Source: Brachyspira pilosicoli P43/6/78
GTDB taxonomy: Bacteria > Spirochaetota > Brachyspiria > Brachyspirales > Brachyspiraceae
Assembly (NCBI RefSeq): GCF_000325665.1
Contig: NC_019908.1
Span: 1,364,001-1,428,000, forward strand
Direction of reading: 5' to 3'
Length of the DNA: 64,000 nt
Shown: in pieces, positions 10,392-16,577 of the stretch
Numbering within the stretch: position 1 is the stretch's first letter
Layout of the letters: each line of letters begins with the position of its first letter
Notes under the pieces: generated by a model
The model's database searches: none
What the model saw: only the letters and a program-made list of their open reading frames with translations
What the model was told of the DNA's origin: nothing
Program-made: the position numbers and the translations under genes

Positions 10392-11429
10392 TTAAGAGTT
10401 TAAAAAGTTTTTTATATATTTTGTCTGCTCATCATTTTTAAGTAAAAAAGTATCATGACCATAGTTTGATTTTAATTCATGAAACTCAGTATCAATATTA
10501 ATTTCTCTATAAGTTTTTACTATATCCTCAGACTGATAGCTCGGATAAAGCCAATCTGATACAAATGATATTACAAGAACTTTATCTATAGAGTGCTTCT
10601 TTATTTTTTTTATATCATCTCTCACATCAAATAAATCCATAGCCTTAGTAAGATACAAAAAACTATTAGCATCAAATCTCTCAGTAAACTTCTCCCCATT
10701 GTAATGCAAATAATTTTCTACTTCAAAAGAAGGAGTAAAATATTTTATAGCCTTTTTTCTTCTTCTTCCAAATTTCTTTCTCATATACTCTTCGCTCATA
10801 TATGTGATATGCCCAAGCATTCTAGCCAAAGCAAGTCCATTATCTGGAGTGGATATGCCGTAATATTTACCTCCATACCATTCTGAATCTTCTGTGATAG
10901 CCTGTCTTGATATTTCATTAAAAGCTATTTGCATAGGTGAATGACTCATACAGCTTGCTATAATGATTAATTTATCCATCATATTTGGGTATGATGCACT
11001 CCACTGCAAGACTTGCATTCCGCCCATAGAACCGCCTACAACAGCATAAAGCTTATTTATCTTCAAATAATCTATTAATAACTTTTGAGCCTTTACAATG
11101 TCTTTCATAGTAAAGCTTGGAAAATCTGTACCATAACACAAATTACTATTAGGTTTCTTTGATGAAGGACCAGTAGTACCGTAGCAGCCTCCAAGCACAT
11201 TTGAACATATTACAAAATATTTATCTGTGTCTATAGCTTTTTTCTTGCCAACAAAATTGCTCCACCAAGTTAGAACATCACTATCCCCTGTAAAAGCATG
11301 GCAAATTAATATGGCATTATCTTTTTTATCATTTAATTTACCATTTGTAGTGTAAGCTATTTTTAAATTATCTATAGCAGCAGAGTTTTCAAATTTAAAA
11401 GTTTTATTATAATTAAAATATTCTATCAT
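10392..11429 (-). CDS. metX: Homoserine O-acetyltransferase
   Basis: This enzyme should transfer an acetyl group from acetyl-CoA to homoserine, the activating step for methionine synthesis. The alpha/beta-hydrolase triad is visible: nucleophile Ser134 in GGSMGGMQ, an Asp in SDWLYPSYQ and a His near the C-terminus in YGHDTF. The N-terminal CHAFTGDSD segment and GGCYGTTGPSS near residue 80 are typical of MetX. I choose the ATG at 11429, preceded by AGGG at 10 bases; an in-frame TTG two codons upstream is possible. It lies 27 bases after metY, so the two are co-transcribed under the metY leader. Succinyl instead of acetyl specificity cannot be excluded from motifs alone. Confidence 0.92.
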   Translation of the reverse strand: MIEYFNYNKTFKFENSAAIDNLKIAYTTNGKLNDKKDNAILICHAFTGDSDVLTWWSNFVGKKKAIDTDKYFVICSNVLGGCYGTTGPSSKKPNSNLCYGTDFPSFTMKDIVKAQKLLIDYLKINKLYAVVGGSMGGMQVLQWSASYPNMMDKLIIIASCMSHSPMQIAFNEISRQAITEDSEWYGGKYYGISTPDNGLALARMLGHITYMSEEYMRKKFGRRRKKAIKYFTPSFEVENYLHYNGEKFTERFDANSFLYLTKAMDLFDVRDDIKKIKKHSIDKVLVISFVSDWLYPSYQSEDIVKTYREINIDTEFHELKSNYGHDTFLLKNDEQTKYIKNFLNS

Positions 11430-11456
11430 ACACAACTTACCCTATTTTTTGATTTA

Positions 11457-12755
11457 TTATTTACTTGCTATAGTTAAAGCCTCATCAAGATAATACAATA
11501 TATCATCTATATGCTCTATTCCTATAGAAAGCCTTATAAAGTTTTTGGTAATACCTGCATTTATTAACTCTTCTTCAGATAATTGAGAATGCGTTGTAGA
11601 AGCAGGGTGTGCAACCAAACTCTTAACATCTCCCACATTAACAAGATGAGAAAATAGTTTTATATTGTCTATAAACTTAACAGCAGCATCATATCCGCCC
11701 TTTATGCCAAATACAACCATTCCGCCAAACTTATCATCTTTCAAATATTTTTTAGCTACATTGTAAGAAGCATCATTTTTAAGACCAGGATACCTCACCC
11801 ACTCAACCCTATCATCTTTCTCTAAAAACTCAGCAACCTTCATAGCATTAAATGAATGCCTATCCATTCTCAAAGGCAAAGACTCCATTCCCTGAATAAA
11901 TACCCAAGAATTATCAGGCGACAAACAAGCTCCTAAGTTTCTTAAAGGCACAGTTCTAAATCTCATAGTAAAAGCAATATCTCTTAACTCATCAGGCAAA
12001 TCATAAGCCCATTTTAATCCATGATAATTAGCATCAGGCTGAGTAAACAAAGTAAACTTATCATCTTTCCAATTAAACTTACCAGCATCAGTAACTGCCC
12101 CTCCAACACTGCTTCCATGCCCGCCAATCCATTTGGTAAGAGAGTTAATTACTATATCAGCTCCATAATTTATAGTTTGAAGTAGATAAGGTGTTGTAAA
12201 AGTACCATCTACTATTAGTGGTATGTTGTTATTATGGGCTATTTTTGCTACTTCTTCTATATCTGTAAAATCTAATGAAGGGTTTGATATTGTTTCTATA
12301 TATATTGCTTTTGTTTTTTTAGTAATTGCATTTTCAAAGTTTTTTGGGTCTTTGGCATCAACAAAGTTTGTGTTAATACCAAATTTTGGAAGAATGGCAG
12401 CAAATTGTGAATATGTACCTCCATACAAACTAAAAGATGATAATATTTCATCACCAGCCTCGCATATAGTAATCATAGTATTAAATATAGCACTAGTTCC
12501 AGAAGATACCGCTATAGAAGATTTGCCGTTTTCCATTGCTGTAATTCTCTTTTCTAATACGTCTGTAGTAGGGTCGCCTAATCTTGTGTAAATATAGCCT
12601 AACTCTTTTAAGTCAAATAAATCAGCAGCATGTTTAGAGTTTTTAAACATATAAGATGTTGTTTTATATATAGGTACACCTCTGCTTCCAAACACATCAT
12701 TATTCTCTTGTCCTGCATGAACAGATAAAGTTTCAAATTTTAATTGTCTTGACAT
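11457..12755 (-). CDS. metY: O-acetylhomoserine sulfhydrylase (O-acetylhomoserine aminocarboxypropyltransferase)
   Basis: This PLP enzyme of the Cys/Met metabolism family should make homocysteine directly from O-acetylhomoserine and sulfide. It has 432 residues, longer than cystathionine synthases (about 380), as expected for MetY. The PLP-binding lysine is Lys208 in NSLTKWIGGHG; SSGTSAIFN near residue 84 and FVDAKDP near 131 also fit. A GGAG site precedes the ATG by 6 bases. It is the first gene of the metY-metX operon, behind a Met-rich leader peptide and attenuator (12781-12981). The partner MetX supplies its substrate. Confidence 0.93.
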   Translation of the reverse strand: MSRQLKFETLSVHAGQENNDVFGSRGVPIYKTTSYMFKNSKHAADLFDLKELGYIYTRLGDPTTDVLEKRITAMENGKSSIAVSSGTSAIFNTMITICEAGDEILSSFSLYGGTYSQFAAILPKFGINTNFVDAKDPKNFENAITKKTKAIYIETISNPSLDFTDIEEVAKIAHNNNIPLIVDGTFTTPYLLQTINYGADIVINSLTKWIGGHGSSVGGAVTDAGKFNWKDDKFTLFTQPDANYHGLKWAYDLPDELRDIAFTMRFRTVPLRNLGACLSPDNSWVFIQGMESLPLRMDRHSFNAMKVAEFLEKDDRVEWVRYPGLKNDASYNVAKKYLKDDKFGGMVVFGIKGGYDAAVKFIDNIKLFSHLVNVGDVKSLVAHPASTTHSQLSEEELINAGITKNFIRLSIGIEHIDDILYYLDEALTIASK

Positions 12756-12780: not shown

Positions 12781-12813
12781 AAAATAAAAAAGCCGCCAAA
12801 AAATTTGACGGCT
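12781..12813 (-). terminator. Attenuator terminator in the metY leader
   Basis: On the minus strand a 10-bp GC-rich stem (AGCCGTCAAA paired to TTTGGCGGCT, one G-U pair) with a 3-base loop is followed by T6-A-T5. It sits before, not after, the metY start codon, so it must be conditional. Its 5' arm (12807-12814) is also complementary over 7 bases to 12848-12854 (ACGGCTG), which would form an antiterminator. Confidence 0.8.
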
Positions 12814-12842
12814 GTAATTTTACAAAATTAATATTTATTATA

Positions 12843-12911
12843 CTATGCAGCCGTAATGATTTTTTGCATTTGCATGAGGCAAAGCATGTTCATAATAACT
12901 GCATTATTCAT
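12843..12911 (-). CDS. Methionine-rich leader peptide of the metYX operon
   Basis: A 22-residue open reading frame, MNNAVIMNMLCLMQMQKIITAA, has methionines at 1, 7, 9, 13 and 15 and a cysteine at 11. It lies about 34 bases downstream of the predicted transcription start and 31 bases upstream of the terminator hairpin. Its last codons (ACG GCT GCA) form the 5' strand of the antiterminator, and its fourth codon region contains ATGCAG, complementary to CTGCAT at its end. This is the four-segment logic of trp/his-type attenuators. No Shine-Dalgarno sequence is visible before either ATG, which is the main weakness. Confidence 0.65.
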   Translation of the reverse strand: MNNAVIMNMLCLMQMQKIITAA

Positions 12912-12952
12912 AATATTTTACATTTATTCAAAATTTTATATTTTATTTATAT

Positions 12953-12981
12953 GTTATATATAAAAAATATATTGTTGTCAA
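12953..12981 (-). promoter_or_regulatory. Sigma-70 promoter of the metYX operon
   Basis: Minus strand TTGACA (12976-12981), 17-base spacer, TATAAC (12953-12958). The predicted mRNA begins near 12945, giving a leader of about 190 bases before metY. Confidence 0.7.
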
Positions 12982-15428: not shown

Positions 15429-15953
15429 TTGTATAAATACATAATATTACTTTTAACAATATCTATTATATCTATATCTTGCAACGGCAAAGAGATAAAC
15501 AATATAATAGTACAAACAAATAAAGCTGATATATCAAATAATAATAATAGAGATGATATAAAAGTATCCACATCAAAATTAACCTCAAAAGAATATGAAG
15601 TGTTAATAAACAAAGGTACAGAGTTTCCATTTACAGGAGACCTTTTAGATGTAAAATCTGATGGTGTATATACTTGTAAACTATGCGGTAACTTACTATT
15701 TAAATCTGATGCTAAATTTAATTCAGGTACAGGTTGGCCTAGTTTTGATGATGCGGTTGCAGAAAACATAAAATTAGTAAAAGATGGGTGCCGAGTAGAA
15801 GTATCATGTGCAAAATGCGGAGGTCATTTAGGACATGTGTTTTACAATGAAGGCTTTACAGATAAACAAACTAGATATTGTATTAATTCTGTATCTTTAA
15901 ATTTTGTTAATAAGGCAGAATTTGAAGAAACTAATGATAGTACAAACAAATAA
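15429..15953 (+). CDS. msrB: Peptide-methionine (R)-S-oxide reductase, lipoprotein form
   Basis: This enzyme should reduce methionine-R-sulfoxide in proteins. It starts at a TTG, supported by AGGAG 8 bases upstream. The product (174 residues) has a lipoprotein signal with Cys18, so it acts outside the cytoplasm. The MsrB domain (about 60-165) has the two zinc CxxC pairs (CKLC and CAKC), GTGWPSF, GGHLGHVF and the catalytic Cys in TRYCINS. It lies 17 bases upstream of the msrA gene, and both products carry lipoprotein signals, forming an envelope methionine-repair pair. Confidence 0.92.
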   Translation: MYKYIILLLTISIISISCNGKEINNIIVQTNKADISNNNNRDDIKVSTSKLTSKEYEVLINKGTEFPFTGDLLDVKSDGVYTCKLCGNLLFKSDAKFNSGTGWPSFDDAVAENIKLVKDGCRVEVSCAKCGGHLGHVFYNEGFTDKQTRYCINSVSLNFVNKAEFEETNDSTNK

Positions 15954-15970
15954 TGAGGTAAAAACTATAT

Positions 15971-16577
15971 ATGAAAAAAATTGCATTAATAGCAGCTATT
16001 TCTATATTTTCTTTAATATCATGTAATGAAAAATTAAATAGCGAATCTTCAAATATTAAAGAAAATAAGGAGGAGACAAAAATGATTCCAGAAAATCTTA
16101 AATACGCATATTTTTCTTCCGGCTGTTTTTGGGGAACTGAATATTGGTTTGAAAAAGGCAAAGGAGTATATGAAGTTGTAAGCGGATATGCAGGAGGACA
16201 TAAAATAAACCCAACATATCAAGAAGTTTGCACAGGTCTTACAGGACATTTAGAAACAGTACAGGTTGCATATAACCCAGATGAAACTACTTATGAAGAT
16301 TTAGTTAAACTCTTCTTTGAAACTCATGACTTTACTCAAAAAAATGGTCAAGGTCCTGATATAGGCTCGCAATATTTGTCTGCTATTTTTTATCAAACAG
16401 AAGAAGAAAAAGAAATAGCTCAAAAATATATAGACATGCTAAAAGAAAAAAAATTATGATGTGGCAACAACTTTAAGAGAGTATAAAAACTTCTACCCAG
16501 CAGAAGCTTATCATCAAAACTATTATGAGAGAAAAGGCTCTATACCTTATTGCCATTTCTATAACAAAATATTTTAA
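15971..16577 (+). pseudogene. msrA: Peptide-methionine (S)-S-oxide reductase, frameshifted at an A8 run
   Basis: The N-terminal frame (15971-16459, 162 residues) has a lipoprotein signal with Cys18 and the MsrA catalytic motif SSGCFWGTEYWF. It also has GYAGGH and GHLETVQV. It stops right after eight A (16446-16453). The expected C-terminus (YDVATTL..., FYPAEAYHQNYY, and a final PYC) continues in the +1 frame to a TAA at 16575-16577. Removing one A restores a full MsrA. A strong second ribosome site, AAGGAGGAG (16067-16075), lies 8 bases before an in-frame ATG at 16082, the natural start of a cytoplasmic MsrA. The truncated form lacks the resolving-cysteine tail. It may be sequencing error, decay or slippage. 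Confidence 0.85.

Follow-up and report, generated by a model that had tools for sequence, protein, structure and literature searches.

Leader-peptide attenuation is the textbook mode of control for Trp, His, Phe, Thr and the branched-chain amino acids, and methionine control is usually ascribed to SAM riboswitches, T-boxes or repressors. The metYX locus of Brachyspira pilosicoli P43/6/78 raises the question of whether Met codons can serve as the sensor of such an attenuator, and with it a clean question of principle, namely how a leader would start when Met starvation also starves initiation. The window analysed here, a stretch of 64,000 nucleotides from the 2,555,556-base chromosome, carries on its minus strand, in this order, TTGACA, TATAAC, a short upstream open reading frame (uORF), an intrinsic terminator, metY and metX, as read directly from the sequence (Table 1). 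A preliminary description had proposed a Met-rich leader peptide and a four-segment attenuator at this site, and on direct reading the promoter, the 22-codon uORF with its five Met, the hairpin with its T-run and the pairing segments all lay exactly where it had placed them.

Table 1. Features of the metYX leader and the genes it precedes, in window positions
Feature	Positions	Strand	Remarks
-35 box TTGACA	12976..12981	-	Read directly; 17-nt spacer to the -10 box
-10 box TATAAC	12953..12958	-	Read directly; promoter kept in metY leaders
Leader-peptide uORF MNNAVIMNMLCLMQMQKIITAA, then stop	12843..12911	-	22 codons, five Met, one Cys
Core codons TGC CTC ATG CAA ATG (Cys-Leu-Met-Gln-Met)	12867..12881	-	Conserved in metY leaders
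Segment 1 ATGCAGTT	12897..12904	-	Protector hairpin 1:2, pairs with the 3' part of segment 2 (minimum-energy and consensus folds); includes ATGCAG, 12904-12899
Segment 2 ACGGCTGCAT	12845..12854	-	Antiterminator arm is 12854-12848; overlaps the last three uORF codons
Segment 3 CAGCCGTCAAA	12804..12814	-	Common to antiterminator 2:3 and terminator 3:4; includes CAGCCGT, 12814-12808
Segment 4 TTTGGCGGCT	12791..12800	-	Terminator 3' arm
Terminator T-run	12781..12790	-	
metY Shine-Dalgarno	12765-12761	-	
metY, O-acetylhomoserine sulfhydrylase	11457..12755	-	TIGR01326, 598.6 bits (cut-off 495.1); PF01053
metX, homoserine O-acetyltransferase	10392..11435	-	NF001209, 430 bits (cut-off 331)

The product of metY makes homocysteine, and the gap of 21 nt between metY and metX indicates that the two presumably form one operon. 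The gene 5' of the leader is divergent. As in a trp/his-type attenuator, both a promoter and a premature intrinsic terminator precede the first gene, and a promoter-like hexamer pair was located 30-42 nt 5' of the uORF in all 22 metY leaders, with a spacer of 16-18 nt and a hexamer score of 10-12 of 12 in 21 leaders and 8 of 12 in the other. On the opposite strand, about 2.7 kb from metY, two adjoining ORFs (15429-16459) appeared by eye to be MsrB-like and MsrA-like lipoprotein methionine sulfoxide reductases.

This metY was present in 22 of the 26 Brachyspira genomes (82-100% identity), and all of these 22 carry the leader uORF at the same place; the encoded peptides include MNNAVIMNMLCLMQMQKIITAA in the window, MKTIIVMNKMFCLMQMCMFNNDGCQ in B. 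hampsonii and MKPFVIINKLLCLMQMRIFIMMAV in B. alvinipulli. An ATG-initiated ORF of 15-40 aa with at least five Met arose in 3 of 5000 dinucleotide shuffles. Among the metY leaders, all uORF indels as far as the core were multiples of three, and when substitutions in the 22 leaders were counted on the metY tree, the core TGY CTY ATG CAA ATG had undergone six, all of them synonymous (22% expected; p about 1e-4), with 10 of 39 single-base changes synonymous outside it. The synonymous excess over the whole uORF was weak (p 0.03 to 0.17, depending on the assumed expectation), and the claim of selection rests on the core, where the purifying selection on codons for which the preliminary description had suggested a test was borne out. 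Met7, Met10 and Met18 were variable, and the Met-Gln-Met core was constant except in one genome, where 6 nt are deleted in frame; the two Met codons of the core (Met13/Met15) are likely the control codons. The short uORF was thus found to be both selected as codons and enriched for the amino acid of the pathway. Leaders that keep the hairpins after losing the frame or its Met codons, named beforehand as counter-evidence, were not encountered, the frame, core Met codons and both hairpins being kept in 22/22. Such conservation of the leader at all 22 orthologous loci is far beyond chance.

A covariance model of 148 positions was built from the metY leaders and run against 120 phylum genomes and each of the 26 Brachyspira genomes; it revealed strong leader copies at further loci besides the 22 known. 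The leader precedes metN-metI-ldh in three genomes of one clade (G002, G018 and G020), with a GTG-start uORF (e.g. MNFIMIVINMLCNSMQMTMVCSIDGCEV), and metX in two genomes that use a different metY (G001 and G003), with a TTG-start uORF (e.g. MNKTAFVNNRISRNHFSMMQMRFEDGCIV). The genes that follow these leaders serve to make or import the amino acid that the uORF encodes, metY and metX scoring above curated cut-offs and metN and metI having MetN and MetI as their best NCBIfam matches, but under the cut-off, with a NIL domain in metN. The elements constant across the metY, metN and metX leaders were Met-Gln-Met, GGCTG, AGCCGTCA and the greater part of the terminator; in place of the core Leu, the metN leaders have Asn-Ser or Lys-Ser and the metX leaders Ser-Met. 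The presence of the same leader before metNI and metX strengthened the original proposal of Met sensing. In a further genome (G017), a leader with a decayed terminator (L100, C19:44537-44680) stands before a stop-containing metY remnant; by its sequence, this leader decays along with the gene it controlled. In the window's own genome, metQ genes come next in the metNI-ldh operon; neither this metNI-ldh-metQ operon, which has the metN promoter directly upstream, nor metH carries such a leader there, and MetE is absent.

Outside Brachyspira, no clear leader match was seen in the sampled phylum genomes, on which a second model was also run, and metY relatives outside the genus were found without such a leader in Goldiibacteriota (L013), same-order G162 (L072/L076), same-family G146 (L073) and G065 (L074). 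Weak model matches in three genomes outside the genus (G087, G081 and G075) and one in the window's own genome proved to be terminators without a Met uORF. Another in G006 (L101, C4:1705328-1705482) was a hairpin repeat unrelated to the leader, in which a long AT-rich hairpin (AAAATTGCGAGCATCCGTTAAGTTTACTTGACGGAT...) recurs in tandem beside a masked stretch. Two extra matches to the exact core pattern in the genus lay within longer open frames, each in a different reading frame, and were taken as chance. In G001 and G003, a different uORF, led by a Shine-Dalgarno sequence and ending in ...FSMMMRV(V/C)AR and a stop, was noticed 5' of the divergent metY, which shares only 44% identity with that of the window; ATGATGATG is directly followed by a GCGCG hairpin and the stop (L039/L040). 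No clear intrinsic terminator was found at these two loci, which are perhaps another Met-leader design, translational or Rho-dependent.

Minimum-energy folding of every leader gave the terminator 3:4 and, around the uORF, a protector hairpin 1:2, and the consensus fold recovered both unguided. The terminator of the window (AGCCGTCAAA/TTTGGCGGCT, 12813-12791, T-run to 12781) has 10 pairs, in agreement with a terminator scan. The alternative antiterminator 2:3 comprised 7-8 pairs in every species, with a duplex energy of -11.9 to -14.4 kcal/mol, and for none of 15 leaders did more than 2 of 1000 shuffles reach this strength; a Watson-Crick-only version of this test failed in the non-pilosicoli leaders owing to a G-U pair, and the energy-based one was passed. 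Segment 1 reads AUGCAGUU with the partner GGCUGCAU in B. pilosicoli and UCAUCGUUAU with the partner AUAAUGAUGG in most other species, differing in register and sequence with its role unchanged; the four-segment logic of the preliminary description accordingly held across species, and its register for segment 1 applied to B. pilosicoli. As for the covariation of hairpins for which it had suggested a test, one two-sided change (A-U/G-C) was found in helix 1:2 of the consensus fold, and none in 2:3 or 3:4 of the leader alignment. None of the 27 intact leaders (22 metY, 3 metN and 2 metX) departs from AGCCGTC in segment 3, as expected of a segment that serves two helices; for this reason neither helix shows two-sided covariation, which would have been independent proof. 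The GGCTG of segment 2 was likewise invariant, yet read in two different uORF frames, and is therefore kept as RNA, whereas the core is kept as codons. Prediction and conservation thus agreed on mutually exclusive helices 1:2, 2:3 and 3:4. The loop between segments 2 and 3 (about TATAATTTATTTTTTATTTTGTA) was also well conserved among the metY, metN and metX leaders, and a pause site at this loop is a possibility.

The spacing of codons and segments suited a ribosome footprint. In 27/27 intact leaders, the last usable Met codon starts 13-18 nt 5' of the arm that forms the antiterminator, and the start of the stop codon lies 9-14 nt past the beginning of this arm. With an assumed footprint of about 14 nt hidden 3' of the A-site codon, a ribosome at the last usable Met would therefore leave the arm free and one at the stop would hide it. 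In masked folding, in which the nascent RNA up to segment 3 was folded with a parked ribosome, the stage at which kinetic trapping would act, a ribosome at a Met codon before segment 2 gave the antiterminator and one at the stop gave zero in 15/15 distinct metY leaders, and the five metN and metX leaders likewise formed it at Met codons and not at the stop. It reached full strength at the M-Q-M core of the metY leaders and was partial at the arm-nearest Met in some. Met codons that overlap the arm (Met21/22 in the B. alvinipulli group) brought no antitermination benefit, and some Met are therefore not control codons. In equilibrium folds with the complete terminator, the terminator mostly won at any ribosome position, and therefore the switch must be kinetic. 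Both spacing and masked folding agreed with the earlier claim that a ribosome at the stop masks segment 2 and one at Met frees it.

From this anatomy, conservation, geometry and predicted folding, all taken from sequence, we infer the coupling, stalling, termination and direction of response, and consider it highly probable that metYX is preceded by a ribosome-mediated transcription attenuator of the trp/his type that senses charged tRNA-Met. Transcription and translation of the leader would be coupled. With ample Met, the ribosome would reach the uORF stop and cover segment 2, and 3:4 would pair, stopping transcription before metY; with scarce Met, it would stall at Met codons, chiefly Met13/Met15 (MQM), allowing 2:3 to pair and transcription to read through into metYX. 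In a ribosome-free leader, 1:2 would form first and permit termination. The sign of this response is right, because stalling predicts the expression of methionine-making or methionine-importing genes, and in some lineages the homologous leaders would constitute a small methionine regulon of metYX, the metNI transporter operon and metX.

Every sequence-testable feature of a trp/his-type attenuator was recognizable except a usable uORF Shine-Dalgarno, which is absent from the window's strain. AGGA or GGAG occupies this position in 21 of the 22 metY leaders; the window's strain has TTTTGAATAAATG instead, degenerate across the region 12912-12935, and the spacing in its B. pilosicoli relatives is long (14-15 nt). 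This leader may be weakly translated or started without a Shine-Dalgarno, and the degenerate sequence might be a natural variant that alters the set point of the attenuator. A further point counts against the attenuator reading: Met starvation should also lower fMet-tRNA and hence uORF initiation, and an empty leader would therefore form 1:2 and 3:4 and terminate. In addition, a pure Met counter would have no need for the invariant Cys-Leu and Gln of the metY leaders, where Cys12, Leu13 and Gln15 (alignment numbering) vary no more than Met. The core Leu codon, directly 5' of a control Met codon, is CTC (12876-12878) in 20 of the 22 and CTT in the other two, and CTC is rare, accounting for 1.8% of the Leu codons within the window. 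As a tentative and rather unlikely refinement, the M-Q-M core, the rare Leu codon and the Cys neighbour may jointly tune elongation to charged tRNA-Met, and perhaps to Cys or a ligand, despite the Met-dependent start; if true, this would make the leader a class beyond simple codon counting.

The same invariant Cys codon, just 5' of the Met core in all 22 metY leaders, bears on whether cysteine, or sulfur amino acids generally, might be sensed instead of methionine specifically, and a ribosome parked at it likewise freed segment 2 in masked folding. We regard this as improbable, considering that Met codons outnumber Cys codons in every metY, metN and metX leader and that the metX leaders have no Cys at the control position, their only one lying where stalling would terminate. 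These metX leaders, which also have no Leu in the core, are the strongest evidence for sensing by Met codons.

The invariance of Cys12, Leu13 and Gln15 with Met, next to the variable Met7, Met10 and Met18, together with the rare CTC at Leu13 in 20/22, would also suit a nascent-peptide arrest leader of the TnaC or SpeFL kind, in which C-L-M-Q-M stalls its own ribosome on a small molecule and stalling antiterminates. This explanation seems distinctly unlikely, as C-L-M-Q-M is limited to the metY leaders, those of metN and metX having only M-Q-M in common with them, and the peptide is not conserved in the manner of an arrest sequence. Moreover, stalling that activates would run opposite to the feedback expected of Met or SAM on a biosynthetic operon, and the ligand would have to signal need.

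Still less probable is an unrecognised metabolite riboswitch, for SAM for example, with the ORF inside the aptamer by chance. In most metY leaders the uORF does fold as a long hairpin whose apical UUUGC/GCAAA stem is conserved, but the hairpin energies were just modestly under those of synonymous recodings, the stem is weaker in two leaders (G015 and G021) and unseen in the metX leaders, and the sequence and register of segment 1 shift between clades, while the Met codons persist throughout and the core changes are all synonymous. Consistently, the window gave no Rfam match, and a covariance model search detected no SAM-I riboswitch (RF00162) in the 26 Brachyspira genomes. An incidental uORF beside a hairpin that serves as constitutive terminator or insulator against upstream transcription is scarcely credible, because, good an intrinsic terminator as the hairpin and T-run make, a conserved promoter upstream is aimed at it, the upstream gene in the window is divergent, and an alternative antiterminator and codon conservation are present.

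The preferred reading, a Met-codon attenuator, would place leader-peptide attenuation in Spirochaetota and make one leader common to biosynthesis and transport operons, and the 148-position covariance model and exact recodings provide the means of testing it. As far as Naville and Gautheret (2010, PMC2965389) knew, the leader-peptide systems demonstrated before the Firmicutes case that they themselves described were confined to Proteobacteria and Actinobacteria, and Seliverstov et al. (2005, PMC1262725) listed methionine elsewhere as controlled by S-box riboswitches. The literature that we searched described leader-peptide attenuation for other amino acids and in other phyla, as well as RNA-based methionine control of other kinds; no Met-codon attenuator or spirochaetal leader-peptide attenuation was found in this open-access literature, with subscription literature mostly outside the search and priority unproven. 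Attenuation by Met codons is thus apparently undescribed before, for methionine or for spirochaetes, and within this incomplete coverage the remark in the preliminary description that it was not described in spirochaetes is consistent with the literature.

Among known systems, the SAM-I (S-box) and T-box elements are the common RNA controls of methionine genes in other phyla, whereas neither was detected in the 26 Brachyspira genomes, the T-box (RF00230) likewise having been sought with a covariance model. In the met operon of Xanthomonas (PMC6230763), methionine represses via the 5'UTR, as the present leader would allow, but mainly at the translational level through a SAM-I-like element, and no leader peptide is mentioned. 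The metXZ RNA element of beta-proteobacteria (Leyn et al. 2014, PMC4239095) resembles the present leader in its proposed terminator and antiterminator before metX/metZ; as described there, it differs in having six conserved RNA regions and an unknown sensor, and the term 'leader peptide' is absent from the main text. The cys-operon leaders of Mycobacterium (PMC1262725) also place sulfur-amino-acid codons in a uORF before sulfur-amino-acid genes, with Cys in place of Met and without obvious terminators, and the uORFC-8-2 motif before cysS in Rhodobacterales (PMC8632094) is similar in its sulfur-amino-acid uORF and again uses Cys. The closest likeness is to the trp, his, phe, thr, leu and ilv attenuators of Proteobacteria and some Actinobacteria, which share a leader rich in the regulated amino acid, three exclusive helices, an intrinsic terminator and a stop codon that overlaps segment 2. 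The Brachyspira leader differs from them in its spirochaete host, in a control amino acid, Met, that is also the initiator, and in heading both biosynthesis and transport operons.
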